From the NCBI GenBank assembly GCA_021018995.1, contig CM037596.1, positions 9,437,501-9,501,500 of the forward strand: a stretch of DNA of 64,000 bases, written 5' to 3'. This DNA comes from Chloranthus sessilifolius (lineage: Eukaryota > Streptophyta > Magnoliopsida > Chloranthales > Chloranthaceae). Positions 494-57,314 of the stretch are shown in pieces. Position 1 is the first letter of the stretch; every line of letters starts with the position of its first letter. The notes under the pieces are model-generated. The model searched no databases, was not told where the DNA came from, and was given only the letters and a program-made list of their open reading frames with translations. The position numbers and the translations under genes are program-made.

Positions 494-650
494 CAATATG
501 TATCGGCCGATACATATTCGGTATCGGCAAACATGTATCCGATATCGGCCGATACCTATACTTTTAATTATTTTTTTTTAAATAAATCGATACATATCGG
601 CCGATACCTATATTTTTAATTATTTTTTTTAAATAGATCGATACATATCG

Positions 651-727: not shown

Positions 728-732
<5 letters not shown>

Positions 733-2624: not shown

Positions 2625-2775
2625 ATTTCCTCTTTGGTGAGGGTTTGTCCTTCGTTTTTCTGGAAGGTCCGATTTCCTTCTCTTATGTGAGAGCAATTTT
2701 CTGTCTCTCACTCCTCAAGGAGAATTTGTTGGGGGTATATCCGTTTCTTAATAAAATTATAATCTTTCAAAAGAA
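2625..2775 (+). repeat. Possible LINE 3'-end remnant
   Basis: The stretch ends TTGTTGGGGGTATATCCG, then CTTAATAAAATTATAATC, then a short A-rich tail. This resembles the 3' untranslated ends of plant L1 elements. No reverse-transcriptase code is visible upstream, so it would be a strongly 5'-truncated copy. This is a resemblance call only. Confidence 0.3.
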
Positions 2776-3046
2776 AAAATCTCCCTAATCTTATTTTAAA
2801 ATTCAACAAACCTTATTTAAAACACTCAACTTTAGTGTTAACCATTAACATTAAAAACAACATGATTGATATTATAGTAAAGAGCACGGATCGTTTAAAT
2901 CTCTTACAACATCATTTTTAGGCTGATTGCACTTCAATCTATAATCACTTTTAACTTTGATGGTATGGATCACTGACATCTTAAACCATTGATTAATGAG
3001 ATAAGATCATTTTCAATGATCATGGCAGGCATTTCACATATCCACC

Positions 3047-3735
3047 GGATGAGCTCTCTTGACCGTCATTTAAACACCAAATTGGTATTTAAATGATTTT
3101 ATACCATTAAAATTATGCTTTGAAGACAGTAAGATGATTTAGATTTCCATGAAGATAGCTTTAAAGGCACCCGCCGAATCTTGTTAAGACACCTATGCTA
3201 AATAGGGTCCACACCTATGTTAAACAGGGTCCGCCGAATCTTGTTACACACCTATGCTAAAAAGGGTTGATTGCCTTAAATCACAAGCATTGATTGCTTT
3301 AAATCAGATGATGGAGATCTGATGTCAAAATTGTAGCGTCCTAAAAACGTCGTCCTAAAGTTAACCTCAGCGACTTGGGTACTTCAGCAACTTTAAGGCC
3401 ACTTTTTGAATCTGTCATCTGGAATAATAAAACTGGGCGTCTAATATGTTGATCATGATTTAAAAGATCCCTTGGATATGCGGATCATGATCTAAAGAGA
3501 TCCCTTGGATGACCGTCTGATAGGTGGACAAAATAATTTCCATCGTCTCATTTAAAGCAATCAATACTTTTTAATACTTATTAGCACACGTGCCCGGCAT
3601 CATTGATTCAATGGGTGCCTTTAAAGGTACCGTTTCCTTGAAACAGTATTAACACCATTTTGGTATGGAATATCATTTAAATGACGGTAAGGCAACATTT
3701 TTGTCTTGAAATGACGGTGAGGAGAGCGTGGTCCA
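3047..3735. mobile_element. Long inverted-repeat (MULE-type) element
   Basis: The left arm (CTCTCTTGACCGTCATTTAA, then an ATTTAAATGATTTTATACC stretch and GCTTTAAAGGCACCC) is matched in inverted orientation by the right arm (GGGTGCCTTTAAAGGTACC, then ATCATTTAAATGACGG and TGACGGTGAGGAGAG). Between the arms are two short direct repeats of CCGCCGAATCTTGTTA with CACACCTATG. Arms of 100 bp or more suggest a non-autonomous Mutator-like element, but no target duplication was recognised. Confidence 0.5.
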
Positions 3736-4330
3736 AACCCAAAAACCAAAAACAAAAAATTGGCTAGGTAGTACTGTAGTACCTCTTATGTACAGAATTG
3801 GACAAAATAAATGATTTGACAGGTGGCAAATAGGACTACCCTAAAAAGATATGCTATCTTTTTGCATCCTCTCATAGCACGAACACCAAGGCTTCAAATA
3901 TCTGTTGAAGCCTGCACATCTCCGCATGCCACATGTCGGCTATTATCTATAACCGTCAAATATATTTTGTAAACTTCGAAATTCCAATCTTAGCATTCCA
4001 GGTAAGTATAGGCATGTAGTGCCCGTCGCTATACAGAATTGGACCCAAAAAAAATGGCATTAGGTACACCAGTAGTACCCTGAACGGGTCAAAAGCTCCC
4101 GGACCCCTGATTTCAAAACCCCCTAAATTTCTGCTGCGCTCCTAGAGTTTGACCACTTTGTGGAACAAGATTGACTAGCCACCAAAAACAAATACTACAA
4201 ATAAAAATTTTAAAAATAAAAAGGAACTCAAAAGTTAAAAGACCAAAAAACTAAGTATCGCCTCTGTGTTTTCCATTTACAAGTTGCAACGTCCAACGAA
4301 CATTCTAAACGGCCGGCACCCGCCCAAATT

Positions 4331-4879
4331 TTACGCCGCGGGCAAGTACTCGGGCCGATACAAAAAATCCGAAAAATCGGATTGCACCGAAAACACATCG
4401 TTACAGTCAAACAAACCGTCAAAAGCAACACCGTCTTCCTCCTTACTCTTGTTCTCTTCACGAACCCCGACATCAAAAACGTCGTAACCAGACCCTATCT
4501 CATCGTCAAACGCCCAGATCTGACCCAATCCAACGGCGTCAGATGAGCCAGGCACAAGATCCACGCTTTCATCGTGGAAGTTCGGCGGGAGGCCGAGATC
4601 GTAGTCGGATGCTTCTAGAAGGAACCCGAGGTCCGGCTGAGACTCGGGATCTGACGAAGTCGCCGGTGCCGTCGTCGGCGGAGGGATAGCTAACTCGTCC
4701 TCGAAAAGTTTCATAACTGACACCAGATCGCCAGCGGCATCTGGGTTCCGGTCGGCGGCGTTATCAGTGTCGTCAAGTATTTCCAGTAGGTTTTCTCGGA
4801 TGCGCTTCGCCTCGGGTGACTCGGCCGAGTCGTCGTCTCGGACTCGCTTCGTGGCGGTGGGTTTTCCGTTGTCTTCCAT
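4331..4879 (-). CDS. Small acidic plant protein, uncharacterised
   Basis: An intact single-exon reading frame of 182 codons, clearly richer in G and C than its surroundings. The start chosen is MEDNGK at 4879. An in-frame ATG at 4933 would add 18 hydrophobic/Ser-rich residues encoded by a CT-rich leader that looks like 5' UTR. Visible features are: a basic patch KRVR near residue 11; a block SPEAKRIRENLLEILDDTD at about 21-39; DLVSVMKLFEDEL at about 51-63; DLGFLLEASDYDLGLPP at about 84-100; and an aromatic/acidic C-terminal half with GQIWAFDDE. The protein is strongly acidic, with no signal peptide or membrane segment. The two basic patches could serve as nuclear signals (inference). The block order reminds me of a plant-specific family of short acidic proteins, but I cannot name a member safely. 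It is the only apparently functional host gene in the window. Confidence 0.8.
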   Translation of the reverse strand: MEDNGKPTATKRVRDDDSAESPEAKRIRENLLEILDDTDNAADRNPDAAGDLVSVMKLFEDELAIPPPTTAPATSSDPESQPDLGFLLEASDYDLGLPPNFHDESVDLVPGSSDAVGLGQIWAFDDEIGSGYDVFDVGVREENKSKEEDGVAFDGLFDCNDVFSVQSDFSDFLYRPEYLPAA

Positions 4880-4975
4880 GAGAGAGAGAGAGAGGGAAAA
4901 GTTTTGAAGTGTTGAGAGTTGAAAGGGTAACAAGGATACGCTGTGGTGGAGATGAGATGGGGAGAGTTGGAGGCC

Positions 4976-4984
4976 ATTTATAAA
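4976..4984 (-). promoter_or_regulatory. TATA box of the acidic-protein gene
   Basis: On the minus strand the sequence reads TTTATAAAT, 97-105 bp upstream of the chosen ATG. Transcription starting about 30 bp downstream (near 4950) would give a short leader ending in a CT-rich run directly before ATG, as is common in plant genes. Confidence 0.6.
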
Positions 4985-4999
4985 GGGAGTGGTATTGAG

Positions 5000-5346
5000 A
5001 GCGCGTGTTGATCGGATGCTCTTCGGGTGTCATGGACGTATCTACCCTTGTTTTATTTTCACCTATTTAACTCCTTTGAATTCTATTTTTGGAGTCCGAT
5101 CGGCTTGGCTTGGCTTGGCTCGGCTTCTTTTGAACTGTTTTTATGCGTCTATTTTTAGCGATCCGGGTTGGGGTGAATTACTGAAATATCCTTTGACATT
5201 TAGTGGACTTACTTAAAAGTTGGTAGAATAGTGGCACGTGCCGTCTAAGTGACTTGGTATGACATGGACATGGACGTGTGACTTGGGTCGCGTGGCTTGG
5301 CTTCTTTTAACGGGTTGCCAATAGGAACCTCTAATTATTAGTTCGT
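5000..5346. other. Intergenic, no gene seen
   Basis: This is the upstream region of the acidic-protein gene. It holds a short TTGGC tandem stretch near 5103-5127 and CACGTG-type words near 5234. Nothing else is recognisable before the retrotransposon LTR begins. Confidence 0.5.
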
Positions 5347-5745
5347 TGTCACATCCCACGCATAACACCAGATCTTTCTATGCAAGGAGGCTCCAGAAAA
5401 CTATAAAAAGATCCTAAGAAAAGTGTAGAAAGAAGAAAGAGTCGAGAAGCTTTTAGAAAAAATTTTAAAACTTTTTGATCCTTTGAATGGCAGATACATG
5501 TCTCAAACTCACACCATCTATTATATATTTGAAGTTTATAAATAAGGTAAAGTATTTCATTTATAAGGCACATTAATAATTATAAGTATTCTTGAATATA
5601 ATATAAGTGCTCTTTTATTCTCTCTCTTGAGTTCTCTTCTTACTCTTTATAGGTTTTCGATAATTTGATTAATCTTGCGATGCTAGAGAGCGATTAAGCG
5701 CAACAGCCGCACAGATTATCAAGGTGCGACAATTAGGTCTGTGAT
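5347..5745 (+). repeat. Left LTR of the Ty3/gypsy fossil
   Basis: It begins TGTCACATCCCACGC and is followed at about 5749 by the primer-binding site. The opening matches the right LTR at 10424. Its interior contains an AATATAATATAAG stretch near 5595 that could be promoter or poly(A) related. Confidence 0.75.
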
Positions 5746-8700
5746 AGTTGGTATCAGAGTTACGTCGGTTAGGAGAAAGTTACGTTGGTTTAAGACAGAT
5801 CATTCAGAGTAAGAGATCACCATGTCATCTGAAATTATGCAAGAGGGAGAACACGACAACGAGGACGACAAACCGAGGAAGGGAGAGATCTCGAGACGTG
5901 ATTGCTAACATTGGCACGCGGCTAGGTAGGGTAGCGATAGCCAACGTCGATGGGAATAATCGATTTAAGGAAGTAGGCCAAAACATTTCGGCTCTCGAAG
6001 CGAGACTCGAGGAGCTACATGGAAAGATGCAAGGCCAAGTTAACATTATAACACACTCGGAGAAGGTGGCACGCGAGAGCCTCGAGGCTAAGGTATGGGA
6101 TGCCCTCAACGCCATTTATGCATAATTAGAGAAAATTAAAGGCGATTGGGCCTTATACAAGAAGGTTGTGACCAGTGGCACGCCCACAACTCGGGATGTC
6201 CCAAGGAGAGTTAAGGCGCGCGAACCCAAAGCCTTCAATGGGTCTAGAGATGCTAGGAAGATAAATAATTTCTTGTGACACTTGGAACAGCACTTCAAGG
6301 CTATCTCCCTAGACGACAAGAGCTAGAAGGTGTAAGTTGTCACACTCTACCTCAACGATACAACCATATTGTGGTGGAGGCAACGCGAGGTGGATATTGA
6401 ACAAGACACTTATACCATTGACACTTGGGAAGACTTCAAGAAAGAATTAAAAAAATAATTTTATCCCGAAAATGTCTATTACTTAGCCCGAAAAAATTTA
6501 AAGAGTTTGCGGCACACGGGATCAATCCAGGACTATGTTAAAGAATTTTCTACATTAATGTTGGAGATCCCGGATATGCCCAAGAATGACTTCCTCAATT
6601 TTATGGATTGATTGCAAACATAGGTGAAGCGAGAACTACAACGTCAAGGAGTTCAAGATCTTGCTTCGGCCATGGTCGTTGCAAAATCACTCGTAGAATT
6701 TAAGAGGTCCGAGACGTCTAAAAAGTTAACTCCCAAGGGTAATTACGGCAAAAGTGGGGGAGACAAGCCCTCACATTCAAAGGAAGATGTCAGCAAGACA
6801 ACACATGAGAAGTCTTCAAGGAACGATAAACCAAAATATGACAACATCAAGAGTCATGACTTTGAAGTGCTTCTTGTGCGACAGGCCGCACATGGCAAGG
6901 GATTGCCTAAAAAGAAGAGCCTTCACAGCCCTAGCCTCTCAACTGAAAGAGAATGATGAGGCAGAAGATACGGCGATGGGGTCTCTACGACTTTTAAACG
7001 CAGTTAAGAAGCAATATGAGACCCCAAAGCAACGCGAGAACACAAAGCCCCACGAACAAATGGCTCATGTAAGTTGAGGTGACCATCAACGGGAAGACCG
7101 CATGTGCAATGGTGGATACGGGTGTCACTCACAACTTTGTCTTAGTGGAGGAGGCAAACCGATTAGGCGTAAAGGTGACCAAAGAGCAAGGATGGCTTAA
7201 TGGCAAAATCGATTCACGCATGGCACGAGGAGTGCCGCTAGCTGTTGGAGAGTGGAAAGGGACCATAGACTTGTTAGTAGTCCCAATGGATGATTTCCAA
7301 GTAGTGTTGGGGATTGAGTTCTTCAACAAAGTTAAAGCGGTGCCTATGCCCTTTGTAAATATTGTCTGCATCATATAGGAAAGTGTTTCAGGCATGGTTC
7401 CTGCGATAAGAACCAAGTTGATTGCAAAGACACTATCAGCCCTACCATTAGTCAAGGGCGTAAAGAAGGGCGACGTAACATTTCTCACAACGCTCTCGCA
7501 GAAGGATGACGACATTGTAGACCACGAATTGAAGGAGGTAGAAAATGTGCTAAACCAATATCAAGATGTAATGCCCTCAGAGTTGCCTAAGAAACTATCA
7601 CCAAGGAGAGAGGTGGACCATAAAATCGAGTTGGAACTTGGGGCCAAGCCACCTGCCAAAGCACCTTATCGCATGACACCTCCGGAGTTGAAAGAGTTGT
7701 GGAGACAACTTAAAGACTTGATGGATGCAGACTATATCCAACCGTCCAAAGTCCCTTACGGAGCACCGGTGTTATTTCAAAAAAAGTATGATGGCTCCCT
7801 ATGATTATGCATCGACTATAGGGCATTAAACAAAGTCACGATTTAAAACAAGTATCCCATACCGCTCATACCAAACCTCTTCAATCAATTGAGAGGAGCC
7901 TGTTACTTCTTGAAGCTTGACTTGAGATCAAGGTACTATCAAGTCCACATCGTTGAAGGAGATGCGTTGAAAACCACATGTGTAACCCAGTATGACTCAT
8001 ATGAGTTCCTTGTAATGTCCTTCGGTCTCACCAATGCTTCAACAATATTTTGCACGTTGATGAACAAGATATTCCATCCCTACCTTTATCGGTTCGTTGT
8101 GGTGTATCTTGACGATATCTTCATCTATAGTGAGACATTGGAGGAACACATAGAACACTTAAGGAAAGTGTTCTAACTACTACAAGAGAAAGACTTATAC
8201 GTCAAGAAAGGAAAGTGTTCTTTCGCACAATCAGAAGTGATGTTCTTGGGGCATAGGATCTGCGATGGCAAACTAAACATGGATAGTAGCAAGGTATGAG
8301 TCATCCAAGAGTGGGAGCCACCAACAAAAGTAATCAAGCTTAGATTATTCCTAGGCTTGGTGAATTACTATCAGAGATTCATCAAGGGGTATTCAGGGAA
8401 GGTAGCACCCCTCACCGATCTACTAAAGAAAAGCATGCAATGGGCTTGGATGCATAAGTGTCAACATGCCTTTGAAGGCTTAAAGAAGGCAATAATGGAA
8501 GAGCCGGTCTTAAACTTACCAAACCCCAACAAGCCCTATGAAGTCCAAACTGATGCCTCTGACTTTGTCATCGGTGGAGTGTTAGTACAGGAGGGACATC
8601 CGATAGCCTACGAGAGCCGGAAGCTCAATGACAAGGAAAGACGCTACACCACCCAAGAAAAAGGGATGACCACAGTGGTGCACCATTTGCAAACTTGGAG

Positions 8701-10423
8701 ATACTATCACCTAGGATCCAAGTTCATGGTGAAGACGGACAACATTGTCACTAACTACTACCAGTCTCAAAAGAAGTTAAGCCCCAAGCAGGCTAGATGG
8801 TAAGAATTCTTGGCAGAGTTTAATTTGGTGTTCGAATACAAACCAGGAAGAACCAACCTAGTAGCCAACATGCAAGTAGAAAGGGCAAATTGGTTGCATT
8901 AAAGAAAGAAGAGTTGGCCATGATTAGCCAACTCCAAAGCACACTCCCAGACCGCATAAGGGAAGGGTTGAAGGAAGATCATTTAGTAAAGGGATTGCTA
9001 GAAATGGCTCGCATGGGAACTACGAAAAGGTTTTGAGAAAACGATGAGTTGCTCCATGCTAAGGGAGGAAGACTATATATACCAAAGTGGGACAATCTAA
9101 GGAAAAAACTCATTAAGGAGTGTCACGATACTAAGTGGGTTGGCCACCCAGGCCAATGTTGCACAATGGCGCTCCTAGAGTTTGCATACTACTGGCCTCA
9201 GATGAAGAGTGATGTCGATGCCTAAGTGAAGACTTGTCTTGTATGCCAACAAGACAAGATTGAGCAACAAGAACCAGGGGGATTGTTGGAACCCGTATCC
9301 ATCCCTACGAGACCTTGGGAGAGTGTTTCTATGGACTTCATCAATGCGTTGCCAAAGTCGGAGGAATGTGGTTCGATCATGGTAGTAGTGGACCAATTAT
9401 CAAAGTATGACACTTTCATTGCCACCCCAACAGACTGCACTGTCACGGAAGCCGCATGTCTATTCCTTAAAATAGTGGTGAAGCTTTGGGGAGTACCACT
9501 GACCACCATTAGTGATCGAGATCCTCGATTCACGGGAAAGTTTTGGACCGAGTTGTTCAAATTATTGGGTTAAACTTACACTTCTCTACAAGTTTTCACC
9601 CCCAATCAGACCGACAAACAAAGCGCGTCAACGCTAAAGTGGAGTTATACTTACAGCACTTTGTGAGTGCCAACTAAAAAGATTGGGCAAAGTTGATGGA
9701 TGTCACCCAATTTTCGTACAACTTGTACAGGAGTGTGTCCACACATCATAGCTCCTTCAAGCTTGTCATAGGGTAACAATCACTCACTCCACACACTATC
9801 ACGACAAGCTACACAAGGAAGAGCCCAGCAGCCTACCAATTCACCAAGGGATGGCAAGAGAAAGCGGACATGACAAAGACACATTTGGAGAAGGCTACCA
9901 AGAGGATGAAAAAGTAGGCAGATAGAAAGAAGAGGAATGTCGAATACTAAGTCGGTGACTTGGTGATGATCAAGCTCATTCCCCAACAGTTTGAAGTGTT
10001 CAGGAGGGTCCATAAGGGGTTAATACGAAAATCGGAAGGGCCCTTTCCAATCCCTAAAAGGATAGGCAAGATGTCCTACCAGGTTCAACTACCTGAGAAG
10101 TTTAAGTTCCATTAGGTCTTCCATGCTAGCAACCTGAAGCCATACCATGAAGACTCGGAGGATCCAAGCCAGGGCATCTCCAAACGAGCCTCAATTGCCG
10201 TAGTGACTTAATTTGAGAAGGAAGTCGAAAATATTCTCGCTAATAGAATAATTCAACATCGAGGCGTTCATCCTTCCAAGGAGTACCTTGTGAAATGGAA
10301 AAGGCTACCAGACAACAAGACTAGTTGGGAGCATACCGACATGTTATGACAATTCGATGAGCAAATACAGTGATTCGAAGGAGATGATGCTACGAGGTTG
10401 TCGCCAGCATAAGTAGGGGAGAG

Positions 10424-20165: not shown

Positions 20166-20606
20166 CAATACCTCTTTCTTCACGCCCACGCTTTTTTTGA
20201 AAGCGCCTACATCTCAGACCCTTGAAAAAAACGTTGATTTCTTCAGATCAGATGATGGAGATCTTTTTTAACAAATATCTTCCACAAAATAGATCTTAGG
20301 TTCATGGTGCATCAATCTGACGATCAATTTTTAATTTCCTATATCACCGATACCCAAAATATGACTCTTCAATCATATAACACACATCATGCTCAAACGT
20401 GACTTTAGGGCCATATTTTGGGGACTGAGGACACATGGAATCACAAACTGGCCGTCCAATAGGTGTTACATGATCTTAAGATCTATTTTATGGACGACCG
20501 GGATGAAAAATAATCACCCTCATCTGATCCGAATAAATCAATAGTCTTCAAGTGGTCTGGGACGTGGGCGCTTTCAAAGAATGCATGGACGCGAACAGAG
20601 GTACCC
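20166..20606. mobile_element. MULE-type MITE, GGGTACC family
   Basis: The right end (GCATGGACGCG, then AACAGAGGTACCC) and the left end (ATACCTCTTTCTTCACGCCC) are inverted relatives. Both arms carry the family core: CAGATCAGATGATGGAGATC on the left and TCATCTGATCCGAATAAATC on the right. The structure parallels the intact copy at 48366-56141, which has a perfect 9-bp target duplication. Here the left end is worn and the flanks do not match. Confidence 0.55.
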
Positions 20607-21260
20607 ATAAACAACGACGCCAATAAATGTAACCCAACCATCTAAGCCAGTTAATTTGAAGGTCATGATATAAAGATCATAAGTGAAAGATTGGCACGAA
20701 GCATAATCTTTATCATATGACTCAATGCACTTCAACGCCATTATCCGATTAAACAGTTGATTGTATCGAATCATATGATAGAGATTGAGTTTTGCACTAC
20801 TCTTTTACATCGTAGATCTGTAGATCATGGCCTTTATATCATATGGTTTAGATGCAACCTCACCTCATAATCGTACTATTTATTTGCACTGTAAAATCGT
20901 AACCTCACCCCATTTCCTCCGGCTAACATACATTGACTGCTTTAAATTTGAAAAAGGAGATTGTTTTTATCCCAATCTTTCAGATGATGCATCTTGAGAT
21001 CATGGGTATATCAATTTTTTTTATTTCATGTTGCACCCATTCCAAAAAATGACTCGTGATTTGTATTTGAGCTTGATGTATGTCTCACGAGTTTAGAGTT
21101 AATGTTTGGGATTTGTACTAGGCGAAATAAAAAAAAACTATCTGAGTGTATGCCTATGATCTCAAGACCTATCTTGTAAAAAGTTGGGACCAAAAAAAAA
21201 ATTCATGTTTTTATATAAAGCGATTAATGCATTTTGGCCCGACACGATGATGTGAGGTTA
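20607..21260. repeat. Further inverted-repeat arms
   Basis: 20630-20860 is a short palindromic unit (AAGGTCATGATATAAAGATC and its inverse AGATCATGGCCTTTATATC). 20920-21200 carries single arms of the GGGTACC-type family (TTGACTGCTTTAAA, TCTTGAGATCATGGG). No gene is seen. Confidence 0.4.
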
Positions 21261-34928: not shown

Positions 34929-37166
34929 GTAGTAGGCTGATCCGATTAGGCATCTTATGTTTACCGATGATCTGATGATTTTATACGAAGCTGGGTCGGG
35001 TCAAATCCTTACTATTGAGAAGAGTAGTTTTTTTGCGCCTAAAAGTTCTAATGTCTACAAATCATTTGGGAGTTCCTTTATTCCATGGTCGGATGAGAAG
35101 GTCGGATTGTACAAATTTGGTCACTAAAATTTTGCTAAAGGTGGAGGGGTGGAAATCAAAATTTCTTTCAGATGGGGGAAAATTAATTGGTTCTCTTTAA
35201 TCATGTTCTCAACTCTATTCCGATTTACTTACTCTCCATTCTTCCTACACTTCATTCTTCCTATACCAAGGAGTATCATTGACCATATTAAAAAATGCTT
35301 TTCAAACTTTTTTTGGGATACTTGGGATGGAAAAATCAAGCATCACTAGAAAAATTGGGCTGATCTTGCGACTCCATTTGCTGAAAGAGGAGTTGGTATT
35401 CATAGTTTAAAAGATGTTAATCAAGCGGGTCTGATTAGATTAGCTTGGCAGGTGATTGAAAGAAAGTCAGTTTGGGCTTCTTTTGTAAATAGGAGATATA
35501 TTAGGAATGAAGGCTTCTGTTTTGCTCAACCGCATCAAGGAGACTCCTACATTTGGAAGAGCGTGGTGAAGAAAAATAAAGAAACAATGAACCTGTGTCT
35601 CTGGAAGTCAGGGGAAAATTGATCACTACAAAAATAAGGTATTTCAGCGGTAGCTAAAACTATCACTATTAATAAAAAAACTGTCGTTACTAGTCTTGTC
35701 GCTATTGAAACAAGAAGTTTTTTTATTAATAGCGACAGTTTTGGCTGCCGCTATTAGTCTTATTTTTAGTATTGCATCCTTCACTATCTTTAAAGTGCCA
35801 TGACTTGAATCTCCTCCATTGGGTGATTCGGCTCCCAATTAACATCTATTGGATTGCCCAATAGGCCTCATCCAAAATAATAATTCTTGGAATAGTGGTG
35901 CTTTGAGCTTCTTTTCGTCTCATATTTAATCTAAAATCTTAGCCTCTTCTTTGTCGTATGACCGGGAAAACAAGATTTTATGGAAAATCCATAATAGCAT
36001 GGTAATTTTACTTTTAAGTCTGCACGGAACCATGTAAGGAAACAAAAGGAACGACTGATGTTTTGGAAGAGGTAATGTCGATCAATTGCTTCAACTAAGA
36101 TAAGGTTTTTCTCTTGGAAAAATCTTCAAGGCTACTTGGCTACTGATGACAATATTAGAAGGATTAAAATTTCAATTGTTTCAAGATGTTCTTTGTGCCA
36201 TAGGGGCGTGGAGACGTCTTCCCATCTTTTTTCCACTTGCACCCTCACAGTGGAGGTTTGTAAAAAACTATTGGGATTTTTTAATATTCTGTACTGGGAC
36301 TATCAGTCTTTGATTGATAGGTTTAATACTTGGTGTAGGAAGTCTTCATCCCAAAATGATTTTGTTCGCGGATTGGTCCCTTTGGTTCTCTAGTGGAAAA
36401 TTTGTTTGAGCATGAATGCGGCTAGATTTGAAGATAATACTGTTTCTGTAGATGATATATTCAGGAACGTTTGCAAATGGTTGGTAGACCTTAGGTTTCA
36501 GGTCATGCCAAAATCGAATAACAATGAAGCGGGAGAAGAGTCTTTGTCGTGGATTGGAGTGCCTTCGGCTGTTAAAAAAATTAAGAAAGCTATGGCAGTT
36601 TACTGGCATTTCCCGGATATGAATTGTATTAAAATCAATGTAGATGGCTCTTCGTTGGGCAATCCTGGCCCTTCTGGAGGTGGAGGCATCATTAGGGATG
36701 ATAATGGTGATTTTATTGTTGCTTTTAACAACGCCTATGGACGTGTTTCGAACAGTGAAGTTGAAGCACGAGCTATTTTAGATGGAGTTAAGATGGGTAA
36801 AGGCTTCTATAAAAACATGAGTATTGAATCTGATTTCATAGCAATAATCAAGGCGCTCATGGGAGGATCAGTTTTTTGGGTCATTGTTGATGTCATTGAT
36901 CAAATTCAGATGGAGCTACGAGGTTTATGTTGGGAGACAATGCACTATTTTCGTGAGATTAAAGGGGTGTCAGATGGTCTTGCTTAGTTGGCCTCTTCCG
37001 GTGGCAATAGTATTACCTTTTCCCATTTGGTTGACCACCATGGTTAGATCAAGGGTCTGTTTCCGTAGGATAGTAAGGGTATACTCTATGTTAGAAGTCA
37101 CCAATCTTCCTTATTTGTTTTCTTTTTCCTTTATTTAATGCATTTGGCTTCTTAAAAAAAAAAAAG
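34929..37166 (+). mobile_element. 5'-truncated L1-type LINE
   Basis: It starts just before the reverse-transcriptase catalytic box (LMFTDDLMIL at about 34950). The 3' part of the RT/thumb region follows (LPIPRSIIDHIKKCFSNFFW near 35250-35310), then a zf-RVT-like zinc-binding stretch (CSLCHRGVETSSHLF near 36190) and an RNase H domain (INVDGSSLGNPGPSGGGG near 36630, with Asp, Glu and Asp positions kept). The tail is poly(A) at 37154-37165. Flanking gagttccacta (34918-34928) and gagtttcacta (37167-37177) form an 11-bp target duplication with one mismatch. Several stops interrupt the frames, while the RNase H part is open in 36406-36987. A CACTA MITE lies inside at 35624. Confidence 0.85.
35624..35774. 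mobile_element. CACTA-type MITE inside the LINE
   Basis: CACTACAAAAATAAGG at the left and CTTATTTTTAGTATTG at the right. The interior has GCGACAGTTTTGGCTGCCGC. Flanks are gat and cat. It is inserted between the RT and zf-RVT parts, so it is younger than the LINE. Confidence 0.7.
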
Positions 37167-46367: not shown

Positions 46368-48356
46368 TTGCGACAGCTTTGCTTCTAGAATCTATCAAAT
46401 CAGGCAGTAGATTTCCCCAACTAGACAGGGAGCCTCTAAAATAAATGGCTTCTTGTGTAATTAAGAAATGTAACTACACTTGACCCTAGCTGTTGAAACT
46501 TAAACACACATGGGTTACATGAGTCAGAGATCTCTAAATCATGCTTAAAAACAATATGGTGTCGCACTATGCATGCCACATGGAATCAAAATATAAGAAT
46601 AATATCTACTCGAGGCAGTTGTTGCCCTTAGAGTTTTGGTGGATGAAAATATAAGTATTCATTTTGAAATTGGGTGAATTGGAGCTCGCATTAACAGTCA
46701 TATGAAAAAAGCCTTCACCATCCATTTTTATTCCATATTTCCATATGGTACACTTCTTAGGCATATGTAAATCATCGTCCTCATCTTAATCGTCATGACC
46801 TTATCCCATATATCTGGGGTTGACTTTCTAAGCATTATTTCTCCACCATTTTTTTTATTTTTATTTTTATTTTATTATTGCGACTTCTCAATCCTTTATG
46901 TCCCTTTTCGCTCCTTCGCTGTCAATCTTCATTGATCTTCATATTCTCCTAGTATTGGTAGTTTGTTAACTTTTAGTACAAGGTATGCTTTTGGCCTTAG
47001 ATGATTATATTCAAACAACATCAAACAATATTGCATGATTTTTCTTTTATAGGTATCATTCTCAAACATTATTCTTCTTATGTACTTATTTCTAATGTTA
47101 TTCTTTCTCGTTACTCCATACATCCATCTTAAAAAAAAGCATCCTAGTCACTTATAATTTATCTCTTAATACTTTTTGATAGTCCAACATTTTGCATCAT
47201 AAAATATTGTTGGTCTAACTATATCTTACCAAAATGTTCATTCTAGTACAACTCTTAGATGATTTTGATTCTACATGGCACATCTCAAACATGATTATGA
47301 GCATACATCAAACATGGTTCTTAGATCACTTTTCGAGATCTGTCTAATGTGGAATCAAAATGTATGCCCATATTCTCAAGATATGTTATGTGGAAGATTG
47401 GAGTGAAAAATAATCTCCATCATTGTATTCAAAATAATAAAGTTTTAAGCACATGAAAATGGGGATGAGAAGGAAGAATCTTGGAGAACTCTCTTTGAGG
47501 TACGACATGATCATGTTCATTTTTTGAAATGTGTGCCACATGCAATCAAAATCTGGCCATGTGATAATAGGGCTATGATATCAAAATCTATTATGTCCAA
47601 GATTGGGATGAAAAATGATTCCATTGTGTGTTTGAAGTCAGTCAATGGTGGAAGCACCTAAAACATGGGTTGCGAAGGAAGAACTGGGAGTTAAAAATTA
47701 AGTTACTGTTTTTTTCATGTTTTTTTAGGGAGCTATTTGTTCCCAATGTAAAGTTAAATGAAGGAATTGTGGGAACAGGCAAACAAAAAGAAAGGAGAGT
47801 TGCCTTTGTTCAATTGAAATTTTTTAGTTCTTTTCAACATGAGACAAAACAAAATAGTAGGTAGATTCCAAGTATATCTACTCTTATATCGCTCCAAAAG
47901 TTTAAAGTTGCTTTTCATTTTAATTAAAAAAAAAAACATTAAACACATGAAGGGTGTCGGTATTTGTAATATAAACACATGAAGGGTATCGGTATTTTTT
48001 CTTCTCAACCTAGGTTTTAAGTAATTAAATGGTTCTTTTAATTAGATGATAGAGACGATTTTTCGCCACAATCTTTAACTTTATGAATCTTGAGATTATG
48101 GGCCTATCATCAAACAGTCAAATATTTATTTTATATGGCACCAGTAGTGGAACCACTAAGGGGTTAGTGTGGGTGTTCGCTTGCCCTGTCTTTCTAAGAG
48201 GTGTAAAAAAAAAAATCCTTACAAGCAAAAATGGTGAAAAATCAGTAAATGAATCATTATCTACACCTATTTATAAAGAGTAAATCTATAATTGTAAATA
48301 ATAAACCACAACATTACTTAACTAAACATGTGGTTCGCACTTATGTTTCTCCCTAA
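46368..48356. other. No gene; scattered MULE-MITE arms
   Basis: Single arms and cores of the GGGTACC-type family lie near 47260-47480 and 47520-47640 (ATCTCAAGATATGTTATGTG, TGTGTGCCACATG-like words). 47930-48000 has a short direct repeat of AACACATGAAGGGTGTCGG / AACACATGAAGGGTATCGG. No coding signal was found. Confidence 0.4.
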
Positions 48357-48724
48357 ATCTCTCATGGGTACCTCTGTTTGCACCTACGCTTTCTCTAAAA
48401 GTGCCCACGTCCCAAATCCCTTGAAAGCCATTGATGATTGCTTCAGATCAGATGCTGGAGAAGTTTTTCACCTCGATCTTCCACAAAATAGATTTTGAGA
48501 TCATGGCTCACCTTTCAAATGGCCCGTTTTCATTTCATGTGTCACAAATCCCAAAAAAATCCTTGAAGCATGTGGCACACACTACAAAAAATGTCGGATA
48601 CGTCGACGGCTGAAATTAATATGCCGTCGGCGTAGGGGAGGATTTGGGCCAACCCTCTACAGCTAACTCGGCAACTACACTTAAGCCCACGACCCTTCAA
48701 TCGGGCCAATATATAAGTGAGTTT

Positions 48725-49080
48725 TTCATCTCCCTTCTCCCTTCTCCCTTCTCCCTTCTCCGATCCCTTCTCTCTTCTTGATCCCCTCATTCCCTCTCGC
48801 TCAAACCCTAAATCTCTCTCGCTCAACCCCTAAATCCCTTTCTCCTTTTCACTTCTCCGCCAACGAGAGTATGAAACCCTAGCTAGCTATTGTCGCCATT
48901 TGAAGCAGTCACTCGAGCCTGAAGAATCAGATTCAATCGACGCCGATCTTTCATTTCATCTACATCCTTCGCCATTGAAGATCTTAGAAATTTTCGGAGT
49001 TAATTGCGCATTAAAAAGGTAGATCTTTGAATTTTGTTTTTTCTCTAAATTCCAATTGCAAAACCCTAACTCCTTCGATT
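48725..49080 (+). promoter_or_regulatory. Captured leader/promoter-like segment
   Basis: A TCTCCCTTC tandem CT-rich tract (48729-48780) is followed by AAACCCTAA-type boxes at about 48803, 48871 and 49063. CT-rich leaders plus telo-box motifs are typical of plant housekeeping-gene 5' regions. A GT donor-like AAAAAGGTAGATC lies at 49015-49027. The parent gene is unknown. It could be the element's own leader. Confidence 0.35.
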
Positions 49081-50763
49081 TGATTTCAGCCTCGAAATCT
49101 CCTCCATTTAGATCTTCAATTGGAGCGAATCAGTGTACCCTGCTTTTTCAGTCACAAGGTCAGTTTCTCCAAATCTTAGAAGATTTGGCGATCTGCTGCT
49201 TAGCCTCTTCGATTTGTTCAACTCGATGTTTTCCTTGCTATCAAATTTATTTTTCTCATTTTCTGCAACTATTTTATTATTATTGTTGTTTTTCCATCTT
49301 TATATATTCTCTTCCTCTTTCGGCAAAATCAAATCGTCCGATCATAAAATTATTGTTTCAGAGGTCAGCTTTATCCAATTCTGTATTTTTGCTTCACATA
49401 TTTCTGTTTTAATATCTGAAGTTGTTCCGATTTTTGTTGATTCTGTTCTTGTATTCAGATTTTTGTTCAAGTTTTTATTTGGTTTTATTTTTGAAGATTT
49501 AACCACTTTATTGATTTTGCGGTATTTATTTTTGGTTGTTGATTTCTTAAAGCGAAGGTAATTATTTTTATATCCTAAAATCCTAGCCCCTTTAAATTTG
49601 ACTTTTTTTAAAATTTTTTTATTTTTATTTTTATTATTTGTAAATTTGACTCTTTGACTTCTTTAAAATCATTTTATTTCTCTAAACCATTTTAATTTTC
49701 TAATTTGTGATTCTCACAGTGTCGACTGCAGGCTTGCACCCCATATACAAAACTCTTTAGTATATGAAATAACCCAAATTGAAGTTTTTGAATCATGTCA
49801 TACCAATATATATGTAGCATTGCATTTATATTGTTTGTTGATCTGTCATAAAAATAATATCTTATGCTATGGTATCTTGACACATACCCAATGTAGGGAC
49901 TTGATTTAGGGCTTGGGTGCCCTGAATACTAGTAAGGCTTTTGGGAATTAGATGGTTGTTGTATATGTTTAGCTTCTGGTATCATTTTTAGGAATTAGTA
50001 TAAGCACCCTTATCTCTCTGTTGAGCTGGTATTAAGTACCTGACCCAAGTGCTAGCAATTCGGGTCAATCTCTTTTTGCCCAAAAGGTCAAGCCTTGAGA
50101 ACACAAATCAGTAAAAGTTCACTTCCCCAATCCAAACTGCTATGAATCACAATTACCTATCAAGCCTGCTTAGGATCAAGCACCACTTGTAATACAACTT
50201 GTATTAGTTTTTAAGGACGTCAATTTTCACATCCCAACTCATTTTTAAAAAAAATTACAAACCACTTTGGCACTAAATTCAGAAACTTATCCTATTCTAA
50301 CACATGTGGCATTGTCTTGGGGAACTTTTAGCCAAAATCAGATCATATTCTTAAATCAAATAAGGTAAGAGTTTATATAGGCTATTTTATATAGGGCACT
50401 TTAGAAAACAATGCCTCAAAAACACAAACTTTTTAACAAAAAGGACCTAACCTCAAACGTTTTAGAAAAATCGATGCTTTCATAGTTTTCTGAAGTTACA
50501 AAATCTGTGAAAGCAACGTTTGACAAGTTTGATAAGAGGAAGATTGACCCATGCACCTCCCTTTGTTCTTTTATTTTTTATTTTTTTTATTTTTATGGAT
50601 AATCGTGGATTCGAGAAAAGCTGTAGTTGAAACCATTAAAGATTTACAGTTTAGTGGATAAAACTCAATGGATATGTGCCATGTGGAACACCATCTAAGC
50701 CATCTAATTTGAAGACCATGACAGTCAAAGGCCATCATTTGATTCAATGGTTGATTGTGTGAA

Positions 50764-50830
<67 letters not shown>

Positions 50831-51635
50831 CCTTGGGAACGAAAGTCGATATGAATTAGTGTTAGGTGTTCAGGCCATGCACTGAACGCAGTACATTGGA
50901 CAACCACTCTCTACCAAACTGGTCAACCCTTAGGAGATGCACCCATAGTCATTATTGTCAAATCAGTGATGTCCATAGCATAGAAAGAAGTGTAATGGTT
51001 AATGCCCACAAAAGCTAATGACCCTTTAAGTTCCTCTGTTTCTTGTTTGGAGAAAATGGGCAGCCTTTATTTCACCCTCTCTCTCTCATGGACAATGGAT
51101 AGTCCCCAAAGTAAATGGGGTCCAAAAACCTGGTTTAAAGTGTCACATGTTAAGGACATAGAAAACGTTTTATGAAAGCAGCAAGAGGGGTTCTAAATAT
51201 TATTCATAAAAAAAAGAGAGGTTCTTAATGTGGAGGCTTACCATCCAAGTTGAAAATCTTGGGCTATTTTAGCTACTTTGATGTCTTCTGTGGCATTTGA
51301 CAGGGATCATTGCTCACTCAGCCAAGACAATGAGTTAACTGTTTGTCAACTGTGAATTTATTTGAACTTTGAGATGTTTAAAGATTTTTATGCTCTTTAA
51401 AGACTTGTGTCTCAAAGCCCACTCACTATGCAGCTGAAAAGACTAAACTCATTGTCTGCAATGAGCCACTGGGTCATTGAACGGGTTTACGACTTGGGTT
51501 TGGTTGATGTACCATGAACTTAGATTGATATAGCCTATAAGCTGCAACATGTGAGAGGATGATGTGGTGTGCAACTATGTATGGTTAGGTAGATGAGTTG
51601 CACACGTTGCACTCATGGTTAGGCAAATTAACTTA
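49081..51635. other. CACTA interior, no coding sequence recognised
   Basis: 49100-49700 is T-rich and intron-like, with long Phe/Leu/Ser-rich frames of low complexity. 50560-50760 carries one arm of a long-TIR MITE (ATTTGAAGACCATGACAGTC). 50766-50829 is a (AT)n microsatellite. The remainder is unassigned. Confidence 0.45.
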
Positions 51636-51772
51636 GCATCTCCCAGGTGCAGCCAAGCCGAAGTCGTAACCCAAGAATGTGAATACGTGAGGCTCGTTGA
51701 ATGTGATCCAATGCTTCATCCTGCTTCCAAACTCCCTAAAACACAACTCTGCAAACTTCACATAGTCCTCAC
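51636..51772 (-). pseudogene. Beta-glucosidase (GH1) exon fragment
   Basis: The minus strand encodes a stretch with [17 protein letters not shown] followed by [12 protein letters not shown]. In glycoside hydrolase family 1 the NEP motif contains the acid/base catalytic Glu, and the downstream GY..G..APGRC pattern is also family-typical. The exon is preceded by a good acceptor (TTGTTGTGCAG). It is about 45 residues of a protein usually about 500 long, so only one exon was captured. It ends in a stop right after GRC. It lies inside the CACTA element, antisense to the ACLB and dioxygenase pieces. Confidence 0.8.
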
Positions 51773-52981
51773 TGCACAACAAATTTACAACAACCAACAT
51801 GTCATGACACTTCAAGAGAGAGAGATGAAATATAGGACTGTCAACAGGCATGGTCGGGTTCAGGCCAGGATTTTGATAGGCCCAATTTTATTTAACCTGA
51901 AAACCTAGATCGATGAAAGTTTGGTATGATTCCAGCAGGGGTTTATTTTTTTCAATAGTTATAATGATTAAGTTGGTAATTACTGTCTATACAGCTTAAA
52001 GGTACGGGTGGTGGTGGTGGGGCTGCCGATTTCCAGCCCCACACTTAATGGATTTAAAATGATAGTGTCGTAGTATGCTTTTAAAATGTCGTGGAATGCT
52101 TTCACTTCTGTCTTTAGCTTTCCTGAGCAGTGGTGAGATTTTCTCTTACATGATTTAAATATCAGGTAATGTCATATTACACCGATGCTGCAGATTATCA
52201 AGGTGATTTTGAAGAATCCGGATCCCCCGAAGACAAGTATACTCCTTAACAATGTTAATTTTGGTGCTATTTGTGGGCCTTTTCCAATCACCACTTTTTT
52301 GCGAGTACCTCATGGTTGCCCTGCCGTTTTGCATGCCATCCAACACAGTTGGACTGTGTGATCAGCATCCACCAATGCTGCTACATATAATTTACTCAGT
52401 TGTTTAGAACATTTATATGCCTTTGCTGCATCAGATGGGAGCCCCACCATTTTGCATCAATCAAAACAGTGCATCGTTATTGGGTTCAGGGATTTAAAAA
52501 CAGATATATCGGCAAATAAGCTGGGTCCCATGCCGATACATATATATATATATATATATATCGTCAGCCCAACCGGCTCATATTAAAGTGTGGAATGCTG
52601 TACCTCCATACCAAATTTAAGCTCAAAACTCAAAGTTGTTTAGTTTATAGAAATTTTGGATTACACCTATGTCCAGAGTTGGTTTTAACATAATCTGTCA
52701 AAATTTTTGGAGTGACCTTTGCCCTGAGATCTGTACATTCCTTAAAATCTGTAGGGATATAAACGAAACTTAAAGTATTAAAGTTTTAGAGTGGTTTATG
52801 AGCTTTTCAACGACATATGATATGAAAGATTTGGCTTTGTAGTTTGGGGTAAGGGGCCAAGTCTGAAAATTTTATGAATTTTTAAGTGCTTAGGGGTCAA
52901 GTCTGAAAATTCTGTAATAAGAGCAGTCCATTGTAGACCTAACTTTTCTAACGCCTAGACCTTAAGAGCTGAGTAGGGCTG

Positions 52982-53042
<61 letters not shown>

Positions 53043-54017
53043 CTAGAATGCATCTAAAAATTCCTTTGGTAGGCCCAATGTTACCTAATTCACTGGAATC
53101 AAATTTGGGTTCGGAATTTGCGGTCTACTAGAGCTGGGCGAACCCGGTTCGATGAGTTTTCCCTTATATTAGGAATAGTATATATCTTTGTGATATGTAT
53201 TTAAAATGTAGACTTTATTGCAACAATGTAACGGTAGAGCTGTTGGTTTAAGGAGCATCTGAGTTATGTCAGATCAGAGGATCGACTCGTCTAGTTCACA
53301 CTTTTTGACCTTTATTATATATAAAACAAGAACTAAAGCAGCAATTCAGTGTTGCTTGTAGCGAATTGGGTAACCCTGGGTAGGACCATGAAATCTAGCT
53401 GATAGGAGGAACCTAAAATAGTTGAACATGACAATTATTTTAGGATTGTGTATTCGTTTGGATGCAATAACTTTGTTCATTACATGCTTTTCAATGTTTG
53501 GAAAAAGATTTTCTCTGTGTTGAAACAGACAAATATTTTAAATGAGAAATAGATTCCTTATAGATGTATTGAAAACTTACAGAAGCTCTACGAGTACTGA
53601 GTACATATCCTTATGGCTTATGCAAATATAAATACCTATAATTGTATATTCGCTAATCACTTTTTGACAAGAGACTGATTCAAGAGAGTAAGCCCCTCCT
53701 GTCTCCCCAAAAGGATATTAAAAAAACATGTTTAGTAACTATCAGTCTACTGAAGCTTGTGGCATTGGACTAATATCTTTTTGATTTGCACAGTGATAAG
53801 TGTTTTATTGTTCCTCCCAATTTTTGTAGCTCTGAAAGTAAAGGACGAAACTTATTGGTCATACCTGCTACCTTAGCTTTCGGTATTTGTCTAAATATTC
53901 TCTACTCATTGTTGTGGGAACTCAACCTGTGTTGACTTTGTTATCTCTGGGGGGCTTTTTTACCCCCCTCTTAAAAGGTGTTCATTGTTGAAACTGATGT
54001 CATATTGTATTTTTTAG
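51773..54017. other. CACTA interior, unassigned
   Basis: 52485-52600 has a GATTTAAAAACAGATATATC / CCAACCGGCTCATATTAAAG repeat also seen at 32560-32660. (AT)n tracts lie at about 52540-52561 and 52981-53038. 52150-52480 is GC-richer and might derive from another gene, but I cannot identify it. 53800-54017 looks like an intron leading into the ACLB exon. Confidence 0.4.
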
Positions 54018-54373
54018 GCTGCATTGAGTGCATTGTACGTCATGGCAACAGGACAACTTTTCTCGCGAAATACACAAACATTATTTTACAATTACAAGCA
54101 ACTGCCCATACAACAGATGCTTGATTTCAACTTCCTTTGTGGTGTGTACGGCTGCTCTTATTGTTCTAAACTTGCGCATACGTTTGGATTTATTGTTGTT
54201 GTTGCTAAATGGCTCTTTGATGTCAATATACAGTAATTTAGTAACATTTTCCATTTCTTTATGTTCTTAGGGAGGGAAACACCTTCTGTTGGTGGAATCA
54301 TTAATCCAGGTGCTGAGGGATCCCAGAAACTATTTTTTGGCTAAGAGGAAATTGCCATACCAGTTCATTCAAG
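54018..54373 (+). pseudogene. ACLB: ATP-citrate lyase subunit B, first coding exons (fragment)
   Basis: An exon begins after TTTTTTAG with about 24 bp of leader and an ATG at 54042, encoding MATGQLFSRNTQTLFYN and so on to DFNFLC. After an intron (GT at 54142, AG at 54270) a second exon gives GRETPSVGGIINPGAEG and then EEIAIPVH. This matches the N-terminus of plant ATP-citrate lyase beta chain, the cytosolic enzyme subunit making acetyl-CoA from citrate. Only about 68 of about 610 residues are present. An in-frame TAA at 54342-54344 stands where Gln is expected (LFFG-Q-EEIAIP). A GT donor follows the second exon. It is captured inside the CACTA element and is not functional. Confidence 0.9.
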
Positions 54374-54621
54374 GTACTTTTTTTATTCCATACTTCGCAT
54401 TTAATAATTTTGAGAATGAGATTAATCCTGATTCTAATAGCCTTCAAACTCTCTGTTGTAATTAAACTTGTTTTCTCATTATGCTAATTAAACTTGTTTT
54501 CTCATTTTTCCATTTTTCCCTACTTATATGTTTTGTATTCTTTTTCGCATTTTTGCATTCTACTTACTTTTCTGCTCATCATATCAACCAGAATCCATAT
54601 TTTTTCACTTTGATCCTGCAG

Positions 54622-55137
54622 CATTTCGGGACAGAGAGAGAAATGTTGCCTAATACAACCAGTTCCGACGGAACATGCTAATGATACCTATCACCAAATG
54701 GGAAGACCTCACAGATGACATTCAAGCCATCAATGTCCTACTCGAAGTTTACGGTGATGATGTAGAGAGCTTGGACTTGTTGGTTGGTCTCATGGCAGAG
54801 AAGAAGATCACAGGCTTCGCCATTAGTGAGACGCCATTCTTCATCTTCGTGATCATGGCATCGAGGTACTTACTTATAACATATATATGGCGCTTTATAA
54901 TTTATGTAATATAACATCATTTTGGTTTTTACGGAGATGTTTTGGGTTTCGGGTTTCAGGTTTAGTATTATTAATGCAATTTTATTTTGGGTTTACAGAA
55001 GATTGGAAGCTGATCATTTTTTTACGAGTGATTTCAATGAGGAGACGTATACGGAGGAAGGGCTCAAGTGGGTGAACACAACAGAGAGCTTGAAGGATGC
55101 ATTCCATACTCCGCAGTTTATTCCATACTTTTTTTAA
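54622..55137 (+). pseudogene. DOX: Alpha-dioxygenase C-terminal exons (fragment)
   Basis: The exon 54622-54865 follows TGATCCTGCAG and encodes FRDRERNVA, then YNQFRRN, MIPITKWEDLTDD and GLMAEKKITGFAISET. An intron 54866-54998 (GT..AG) precedes the exon with RLEADHFFTSDFNEE and TYTEEGLKWVNTTESLKD. These are the C-terminal blocks of plant fatty-acid alpha-dioxygenases (pathogen-induced oxygenase, heme peroxidase superfamily), about 110 of about 640 residues. An in-frame TAA at 54651-54653 replaces the Arg expected before YN. The extreme C-terminus after ESLKD diverges and stops at 55137. The heme-binding and catalytic regions are absent. Confidence 0.9.
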
Positions 55138-55408
55138 AGATTAGTTGCGAAGGCAGAGTTTGTATGTGTATGTAATGGCTCCCTTATTATTATTATTATT
55201 GAGATTATATAGCCTGATAATCTTTTGATGTTGGCAGAGAGAGTAATCCCTTTGGCAAAATATATCTATGAATGGAAATTGCTATTTTGATGTTTTTTAA
55301 ACTAAATCAGGAAGCTACTCATTCCAAACATTCTTTACCTGTGTTGGTTCAAAATTCGTGAATTTTTGTGATCTCAGGTTAATCTGAAATCCTACTTTAG
55401 GTTATCAG

Positions 55409-55534
55409 ATGGGCAGAAGCAGCTCCTGGGGACCAGCGGCTTTTAGTTATAGTGCTGGTCAGACCCAGCTTGATGAAGGAAGCAACGGAAGCTATTTCTC
55501 TTTGGTTCTGAAGTCCGCAAAGCAAAGAGCATAA
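55409..55534 (+). other. Short GC-richer open frame, 41 residues
   Basis: A small frame starting MGRSSSWGPAAFSYSAG is GC-richer than its surroundings and lies between the dioxygenase fragment and the CACTA right subterminal repeats. It may be a piece of another captured gene. The family is not recognised, and chance is possible. Confidence 0.2.
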
Positions 55535-55670
55535 GGTTTTTAATTAAAAAATAATGATATCGTCGGCGTAGGTGCGGGAAAATTTAAAAAAATAAAAAAT
55601 ATATTTTTAAAAAAAATTGAAAATATATACGCCGCCGTCAGCGTAGGTGAGGAAATTAAAAGAAAAAAAA

Positions 55671-55685
<15 letters not shown>

Positions 55686-55735
<50 letters not shown>
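55686..55735. repeat. (A)n(AT)n tract inside the CACTA right end
   Basis: A poly(A) run from about 55660 passes into (TA)n. It separates groups of subterminal CCGTCGGCGTAG repeats. Confidence 0.85.
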
Positions 55736-55736
<1 letters not shown>

Positions 55737-56150
55737 TAATTTAAAACCCTACGCCGACAGGTGTAGCCGTCGGCGTAGGACCTCCTTACCCTATGCTGAC
55801 AAAATTATCACCGACGGTTGGAAAAGTCTACGCCGACGGTTGACAGCCGTCGGCCTAAGCTACACCGACGGTTGGAGAACTCTGCGCCGACGGCTGTAGG
55901 TCCCTTTTTTTTGTAGTGACACCTCACACTCAAACGTGAATTAGGGTCATTTTTTGGGGATCTGTAACACATGGAATAAAAAACATACCGTCTGATAAGT
56001 GAGACATAATCTCAAGATCTACTGTGTGGAAGATTGGGCTAAAAAATTATCTTCATCATCTGATTTGAAGCAATCAATGGTTTTCAGGGGTCTGAGACGT
56101 GGTTGCTTTCAAAGAATGCATGGGCACAAATAGAGGTACCCATCTCTCAT

Positions 56151-57314
56151 TTCCAAAAGTAAATATCTTAAGATCATTTCCAAAAGTAAATATCTTAGCA
56201 CACACGCATTTAAGTGCTAAGATTGTTTGACTTTTTTAATCAAATAATAGAAATTATTTTTCGTCCTAATTTTCTATGCTACATATCTTAAGATCATGAT
56301 CCCAAAGTAAAAAATTTCATTAATTTTGGTGAAATTTTGTTAAATTCGTCGAAATTAATGAAATTTTGAAATCCCTGAAATTTCGTTAAAAGTTTTGTCC
56401 AACCCTTATTTCAACGAATTTCTTCGAAATTTGTCTCTATCACTTAGAGCCCGGCTAGATGAAAATTCTGGTTTCATCACTGTATAGCACACATCTCAAA
56501 AAGTGAACATGATCAAGGAACTACAACAAATGTGGTTCTTGGATCACTTGTCGAGATGTGTGCCACGTGAAATCCAAATCAGACCGTTTGATGGTAGGCC
56601 CATGATCGCAAGATCCATGCATGAAAGATTTGAGCGAAAAATGATCACCATTATCTAATTCTAATCAATCAATGATTTAAGCACATGAAACCCAAGTGTG
56701 AAGGAAGAATCTTCGTTTCAAAGTAAAAGTATCAAATATAAATGTCTTGAAAATTCTCTAACTTGAGTGAGATGTAGAAGACTTTAAATATTGCTGGTTG
56801 AACCTGATTTCATCATTTCATGTATAACCAAATTTGTAGCCATTATATAAGAGAGAATCTTAACTGCATGTAATTCAATAAAAATGAAAACTGTGTAAGT
56901 CAAAATTCTCTCTTATCTAATGACTATAAATCTAGTTAAACACAAAATTAGATTCGACCAGTTGGACGTTATCATTGCCCTTGTCAAAGTGGTAGATGAA
57001 AAAGACACTCCAATCAGTCAAAGCTGTTTAAGTGGGAGGGCATCTTTTCGGTAGGCCTCATCCCAAGCATCATGCTAATTGGAGGCTTTAAAAGCACTCT
57101 ATTACAGACTTTTGTTCTGGCTAATTGGAGGCTTTTTAAACCACACTATTACAGGTTTAGAACACTTTTGTTCATTTAATGGAGACCCTCCATGCATGCT
57201 CTTAATAATCTAGTGAAGGTAATGCAATAATTGAGCTTTTTAGCTAAATCCCATGAAAAAAAATATAGATATACATAAATATACAACATTTTAAATCTTG
57301 ATGAAGATATTCCT
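56151..57314. other. No gene; MULE-MITE arms and AAATTTCG repeats
   Basis: A short direct repeat of TTCCAAAAGTAAATATCTTA occurs at 56151-56195. 56265-56700 holds arms of the GGGTACC-type family around a palindromic TTTCATTAATTTTGG / GAAATTAATGAAATTTTG stretch. 57040-57190 has a duplicated CTAATTGGAGGCTTT segment. Confidence 0.4.

Follow-up and report, generated by a model that had tools for sequence, protein, structure and literature searches.

A non-autonomous Pack-CACTA transposon of Chloranthus sessilifolius that holds parts of three or more unrelated host genes and a record of their stepwise capture

The window analyzed here is a stretch of 64,000 nucleotides from the genome of Chloranthus sessilifolius (C13:9437501-9501500, where C stands for the contig labels of the host assembly, which was searched whole: 2.17 Gb, 32 contigs). 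It contains, at positions 48580-55918, a non-autonomous Pack-CACTA transposon that has taken up parts of three or more host genes unrelated to one another, as had been proposed in an earlier note made from the sequence alone. Unless a contig or locus is named, coordinates are those of the window. The element, its ends and its immediate flanks are:

48300..48579, no strand assigned: left half of the palindromic repeat that was the insertion target
48577..48579, no strand assigned: left copy of the target site duplication (TSD), ACA
48580..55918, plus strand: Pack-CACTA element, non-autonomous, 7339 bp, recognized by its terminal inverted repeats (TIRs), its TSD, six transposase-free frames and sister elements on C11 and C3
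48580..48591, plus strand: left TIR, CACTACAAAAAA, 12 bp
48598..48635, no strand assigned: left subterminal repeats of the GCCGTCGGCGTAG type, from a motif scan
55559..55894, no strand assigned: right subterminal repeats, in both orientations, from a motif scan
55907..55918, minus strand: right TIR, TTTTTTGTAGTG, 12 bp
55919..55921, no strand assigned: right copy of the TSD, ACA
55919..56260, no strand assigned: right half of the palindromic repeat

The TIRs are exact 12-bp inverted repeats that begin with CACTA, a trait of the CACTA/En/Spm superfamily, and the subterminal repeats, which are both direct and inverted, are of the CCGTCGGCGTAG type. A scan of both strands for the GCCGTCGGCGTAG motif, allowing up to 3 mismatches, gave 12 matches in the element, some of them overlapping, all within 60 bp of its left end or 360 bp of its right end; the remaining 56.7 kb of the window gave 5. 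No transposase was found in the element with Pfam (six frames, stops read as X, E up to 0.1), the only domains being An_peroxidase and Glyco_hydro_1, and several non-genic repeats also lie inside it. CACTA termini, subterminal repeats, a length of about 7.3 kb and the lack of a transposase had all been described earlier, and each was borne out.

The element sits in the middle of a copy of a repeat resembling a miniature inverted-repeat transposable element (MITE), and its two flanks are the halves of this one palindromic, very common repeat. When the flanks were joined with one ACA and searched against the genome (40 of 11,522 candidates scored), the query spanned the junction in all 39 scored non-self loci. 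Two uninterrupted copies of the repeat in the same genome, at window 20169-20608 and at C8:136028420-136028580, have a single ACA at the junction; the former was read from its plus-strand alignment only, the minus-strand alignment being gapped at that point, and two further copies in the window (67-68%) were too diverged at the junction and were left out. The single ACA in these two related empty sites makes it well supported that the flanking ACA is a true target duplication, as the earlier note had it. The MITE-like repeat and its relatives are very abundant, occupying 20169-20608, 47320-48579 and 55919-56700 of the window and yielding the 11,522 first-look candidates in the genome.

Two sister elements contain all three gene pieces. 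The first, at C11:66388747-66396167, is 7421 bp long, is flanked by the TSD CAT and differs by one base in its left TIR. The second, at C3:127641184-127650788, has matching ends, the TSD TGG and a length of 9605 bp, which includes a private insertion of about 2.2 kb in which no Pfam domain was found (six frames, E up to 0.1). Thus, three elements with both ATP-citrate lyase B (ACLB) and alpha-dioxygenase pieces are present on three contigs with different TSDs (ACA, CAT and TGG), indicating that the element was mobile after capture. The modules, gene pieces and junctions inside the window copy are:

48580..49545, plus strand: 5′ terminal module of the family
51302..52852, plus strand: multicopy module with an antisense GH1 exon
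about 51516..51777, minus strand: GH1 beta-glucosidase exon piece
53403..54433, plus strand: ACLB piece, comprising upstream non-coding sequence, exons 1-2 and part of intron 2
54042..54141, plus strand: ACLB exon 1
54271..54373, plus strand: ACLB exon 2, with an in-frame stop
54434..54479, no strand assigned: filler of the left junction, with 7 nt of unexplained sequence followed by 18 nt of inverted and 21 nt of direct alpha-dioxygenase sequence
54480..55103, plus strand: alpha-dioxygenase piece, running from an intron end through one exon and the intron after it into the following exon, which is incomplete
54622..54865, plus strand: alpha-dioxygenase exon, with an in-frame stop
54999..55103, plus strand: next alpha-dioxygenase exon, truncated before its end
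55104..55126, no strand assigned: filler of the right junction, in which ACLB intron 2 is copied twice in short stretches
55127..55918, plus strand: 3′ terminal module of the family

The ACLB piece, which corresponds to the N-terminus as first described, was identified by comparison with solved chains (8e-13 to Methanosaeta ACLY-B, about 1e-9 to 6e-9 to human ATP-citrate synthase); Pfam gave no match for this short piece. Its genome search returned six loci, all of which were scored: four elements, a gene on C15 (94.2% at C15:10637950-10638970) and a 76% paralogue on C7. The four copies in elements (C13, C11, C3 and C14) depart from the C15 gene in the same ways, among them 9 nt inserted beside the ATG, which points to a single capture. 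The alpha-dioxygenase exons, likewise described earlier, gave a protein-level match of 2e-53 and aligned at 95.5% with C1:15293363-15293988. In a search with this piece and the 3′ module, for which all 18 candidates were scored, the gene part was covered by three elements, the C1 gene and a 78% paralogue, while nine loci matched the 3′ module only and four a short stretch only. Both the C15 and the C1 gene are still present, with reading frames open at the captured exons, and comparison of the sequences showed them to be the donors of the ACLB and the alpha-dioxygenase piece, respectively. Because both pieces contain introns, they were copied from genomic DNA and not from mRNA. A literature search for gene capture by a transposon involving ATP citrate lyase returned no paper.

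The third piece matches rice GH1 beta-glucosidase 3gno (5e-17) and Pfam Glyco_hydro_1 (1.5e-14). The antisense GH1 exon reported by the earlier note is therefore present, but it is not private to the element, since it lies within a module of which large parts are common to at least 10 loci (40 of 200 candidates scored). Six of the 10 loci have the module without ACLB, suggesting that the module was probably the first cargo. The nearest copy outside the module, at C2:179494432-179494640, is 88% identical over 51569-51777 and 79% in protein, the next GH1 matches outside the module reaching at most 58%. An apparent stop interrupts the C2 copy, and translation of 9.9 kb in the three frames of the plus strand gave one GH1 stretch only; the copy may therefore be a relic of a gene, in which case the actual donor may no longer exist. 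Copies of the module with no stop in the 85-codon GH1 stretch were found at C3:171454739, C5:14907773 and C14:43712497; those of the Pack-CACTA lineage differ. On C5 (L039, C5:134810000-134819900, reverse complement, about 3659-7227), CACTACAAAAAA and the same subterminal motif stand about 1.2 kb before a GH1 module, and this is probably another CACTA element of the same family, with the module and without ACLB. With nearest outside copies on C15, C1 and C2, the three pieces are not collinear with any one native locus, and the genome search proposed for parents and same-end copies has thus yielded two donors, one approximate parent, two full sisters and a partial relative.

This partial relative, on C14, informs the order of capture. 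Its GH1 module is split by a long insertion, and its ACLB piece begins at the same left breakpoint as the others (donor 951), runs to donor 2512 and continues with exons 3-4, which match C15:10645864-10646446 at 97%. No match to alpha-dioxygenase was found in it. A longer ACLB piece without alpha-dioxygenase argues for stepwise growth of the cargo, in which alpha-dioxygenase came last and the 3′ part of ACLB was replaced. The capture of ACLB before alpha-dioxygenase is well supported, and the GH1 module probably preceded both. The position of exons 3-4 also means that the donor gene today has about 6.3 kb more in intron 2 than the C14 copy has (excess at C15:10639511-10645864), which suggests a later insertion in the gene. 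The C14 relative ends in a terpene-synthase exon (Pfam 1.6e-21) followed by GCCGTCGGCGTAGG-type repeats; neither an intact CACTA terminus nor a match to the 5′ module was found in the stretch fetched. The terpene-synthase exon, beside the 3′ end on the minus strand (about 557-812 of L043, C14:15642000-15651900), was not traced to one parent: the piece around it has matches of 86-95%, each longer than 330 bp, at 18 other loci, and may be either a further captured fragment that is spreading or part of a gene family.

The ends of the element are found elsewhere in the genome. The first 601 bp of the 5′ module match at least 40 scored loci (40 of 541 candidates scored), and the 3′ module, searched to 55444, was matched at 12 loci or more (40 of 104 candidates scored). 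In four of the 40 loci with the 5′ end, a match to the PF02992 transposase lies downstream on the same strand, 3852, 4311, 4798 and 6345 bp away from the element end. About 0.01 such pairs were expected, a figure to be read with the knowledge that the pairs were picked by eye, by comparison of 150 scored PF02992 candidates (of 1763) with the 40 loci, and that the 7-kb limit was set afterwards. These pairs suggest that the ends belong to a family that likely has autonomous members. No 5′ partners of nine other 3′-module loci were seen, by eye, among the 40 of 541 candidates scored. One locus on C12 (L051, C12:90080000-90089900, about 540-6114) has subterminal motifs and diverged sequence with weak similarity to the 5′ module about 5.5 kb before its 3′ end, where the 3′ module with TTTTTTGTAGTG is found; in all likelihood this is one more CACTA element, about 5.6 kb long.

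The junctions around the alpha-dioxygenase piece bear directly on how it was acquired. The 18-nt part of the left filler is an inverted copy of the alpha-dioxygenase donor (L048:3982-3965), from the far end of the captured tract; it is exact in the C11 and C3 elements, and has one later base change in the window copy. The 21-nt part that follows is a direct copy of the donor intron (L048, 3369-3389); in C13 and C11 this stretch is then repeated from donor 3364 onward, and in C3 it occurs once. The right filler consists of two copies of ACLB intron 2 (donor L053:1926-1940, then 1922-1933), again exact in C11 and C3 and with later changes in C13. In 200 shuffles per filler, compared by longest chance match, same-strand shuffles reached maxima of 11 and 12 bases against the 18-nt alpha-dioxygenase match, and also 11 and 12 against the 15-nt ACLB match; the next 12 nt were not shuffled. 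The fillers are templated, each seam from the opposite partner. Copied filler of this sort is characteristic of break repair, and in maize it has been described as filler DNA at end-joining junctions (PMC2686159).

We regard it as likely that the element is a Pack-CACTA whose cargo was built up stepwise, with alpha-dioxygenase added last by gap repair with template switching, and which was moved in trans. First, a module with the GH1 exon would have been acquired; a long genomic piece of ACLB, introns included, would then have been copied from the C15 gene, and finally a piece of the C1 gene, displacing the 3′ part of ACLB. For this last step, a break or gap inside the element, repaired by DNA synthesis, is the most likely mechanism: the growing end would have passed from ACLB intron 2 into the alpha-dioxygenase gene, returned briefly to ACLB and then reached the 3′ end of the family, and these template jumps would account for the short stretches of copied filler at the two seams. 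The element in its final form stands at three sites and is now decaying; its mobilization would have been in trans, through a transposase encoded by relatives that have the 5′ end in common with it. Both the template switching in gap repair and the mobilization in trans are what we infer from these traces.

The most serious alternative is the model proposed for Pack-CACTA elements of Arabidopsis, by which two related elements, inserted close together on either side of the alpha-dioxygenase fragment, would have transposed as a single hybrid once their inner ends were gone. We consider this unlikely here, though it has more in its favor than the other alternatives. It is the published model for Pack-CACTA and other Pack-TYPE elements (PMC8903248; PMC13317346), the 3′ module stands at nine other loci without a match to ACLB or alpha-dioxygenase, and the C14 relative has a different 3′ module, as if element halves had recombined. 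However, the alpha-dioxygenase donor is open at the fragment, no CACTA end pattern was found in the 9 kb around it with two strict patterns, and filler drawn at each seam from the opposite partner is explained most simply by one repair event. On these grounds, template switching was judged about twice as likely as fusion, which is not proof; the filler fits break repair with template switching somewhat better than it fits fusion of neighbors.

Several points weigh against the repair account. End-joining, too, can produce filler copied from sequence close by, and identical traces could therefore remain after two neighboring elements had fused and then suffered deletions. Shuffles on some other target strands reached 15 matching bases, which makes the 15-nt match modest when taken alone, and for the 7 nt with which the left filler opens, none of the sequences tested gave a match. 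The fillers of the window copy are both altered by later changes, the exact matches being those of C11 and C3. A search for a filler template at the junction upstream of ACLB gave nothing longer than 11 matching bases. The GH1 donor is uncertain, its parent being approximated by a damaged copy, and no complete autonomous copy of the family was read end to end. As for the wider proposition, that CACTA elements capture unlinked genes by template switching in repair synthesis, and that this family keeps intermediates and cross-templated seams of the process, we judge the case for and against it to be evenly balanced.

A different question is whether the captured pieces form a functional chimeric gene, in which the ACLB start would drive expression of the alpha-dioxygenase C-terminus. 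The two pieces have the same orientation, their GT/AG sites are retained in the window copy, and coding sites are less diverged from the donor than non-coding sites in 5 of 7 comparisons, a difference that could come from constraint on the donor side alone. Against this, splicing of ACLB exon 2 to the alpha-dioxygenase acceptor puts the alpha-dioxygenase exons out of frame, and both pieces in the window copy have in-frame stops; the ACLB stop is not found at that place in C11, C3 or C14, and C11 retains the donor codon at the alpha-dioxygenase stop. The other copies are damaged in their own ways (a frameshift in ACLB exon 2 of C11, a stop in ACLB exon 1 of C14, deletions in the alpha-dioxygenase exons of C3), and nonsynonymous changes equal or exceed synonymous ones in 9 of 10 exon comparisons, with small counts taken from ACLB exon 1 and the alpha-dioxygenase exons only. 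A working chimera in the window copy was thus rejected; the pieces look inert, judging from their reading frames, and a functional gene of this kind is very improbable.

That two CACTA-like pentamers merely happen to enclose a pile of decayed genes and repeats, and that the region is not a mobile unit, has next to no probability left: the region is indeed full of repeats and AT runs, but the idea is refuted by the C11 and C3 sisters, two loci with the same end-to-end structure and their own 3-bp duplications, and is opposed as well by the two empty sites with a single ACA.

Elsewhere in the window, open frames resembling the gag-pol of a long terminal repeat (LTR) retrotransposon were noted by eye at 5748-9573, and at 36394-36987, also by eye, a frame of 197 codons that includes an RNase H-like stretch and probably derives from a long interspersed nuclear element (LINE).

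How cut-and-paste elements gain gene pieces from other chromosomes is still debated. Here template switching and neighbor fusion can be compared directly at one locus, since the genome retains the donors as well as three copies of the finished element and a relative in which ACLB is in an earlier state, and since the filler at the seams can be identified. The kind of element is already known, and the presence of several gene fragments in one CACTA element, which the earlier note had called known in principle, is ordinary for the class; the more informative part is the stepwise record and the unusually clear capture junctions. The closest parallels are the following. Tgm-Express1 of soybean, a CACTA element of 5.7 kb with five unrelated host gene fragments (PMC1947982), resembles the window element in being built from several such fragments. 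Its cargo is different, its fragments were shown to be spliced into host transcripts, and it is inserted in a gene intron, while the window element lies in a repeat. The CACTA elements of Chenopodium also contain captured host fragments, but in the 5′ region of elements with coding sequence, whereas no transposase was found here (PMC8978399). In maize, Pack-TYPE elements often hold more than one locus, most of them in Pack-CACTA (PMC8903248). For the Pack-CACTA and Pack-TYPE elements of Arabidopsis, rice and maize, capture is explained by fusion of neighboring insertions (PMC8903248, section 9), in contrast to the seams of the window element, which carry filler from both partners; a 2026 review allows that unlinked genes may be captured by some other mechanism that is yet to be discovered (PMC13317346, section 7). 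Gap filling with template switching has been proposed for the Pack-TIR elements of animals (PMC8277862), which resemble the window element in that template switching would take place during repair within a TIR element. In the animal elements microhomology is stressed, whereas the plant element described here has multi-step templated fillers.

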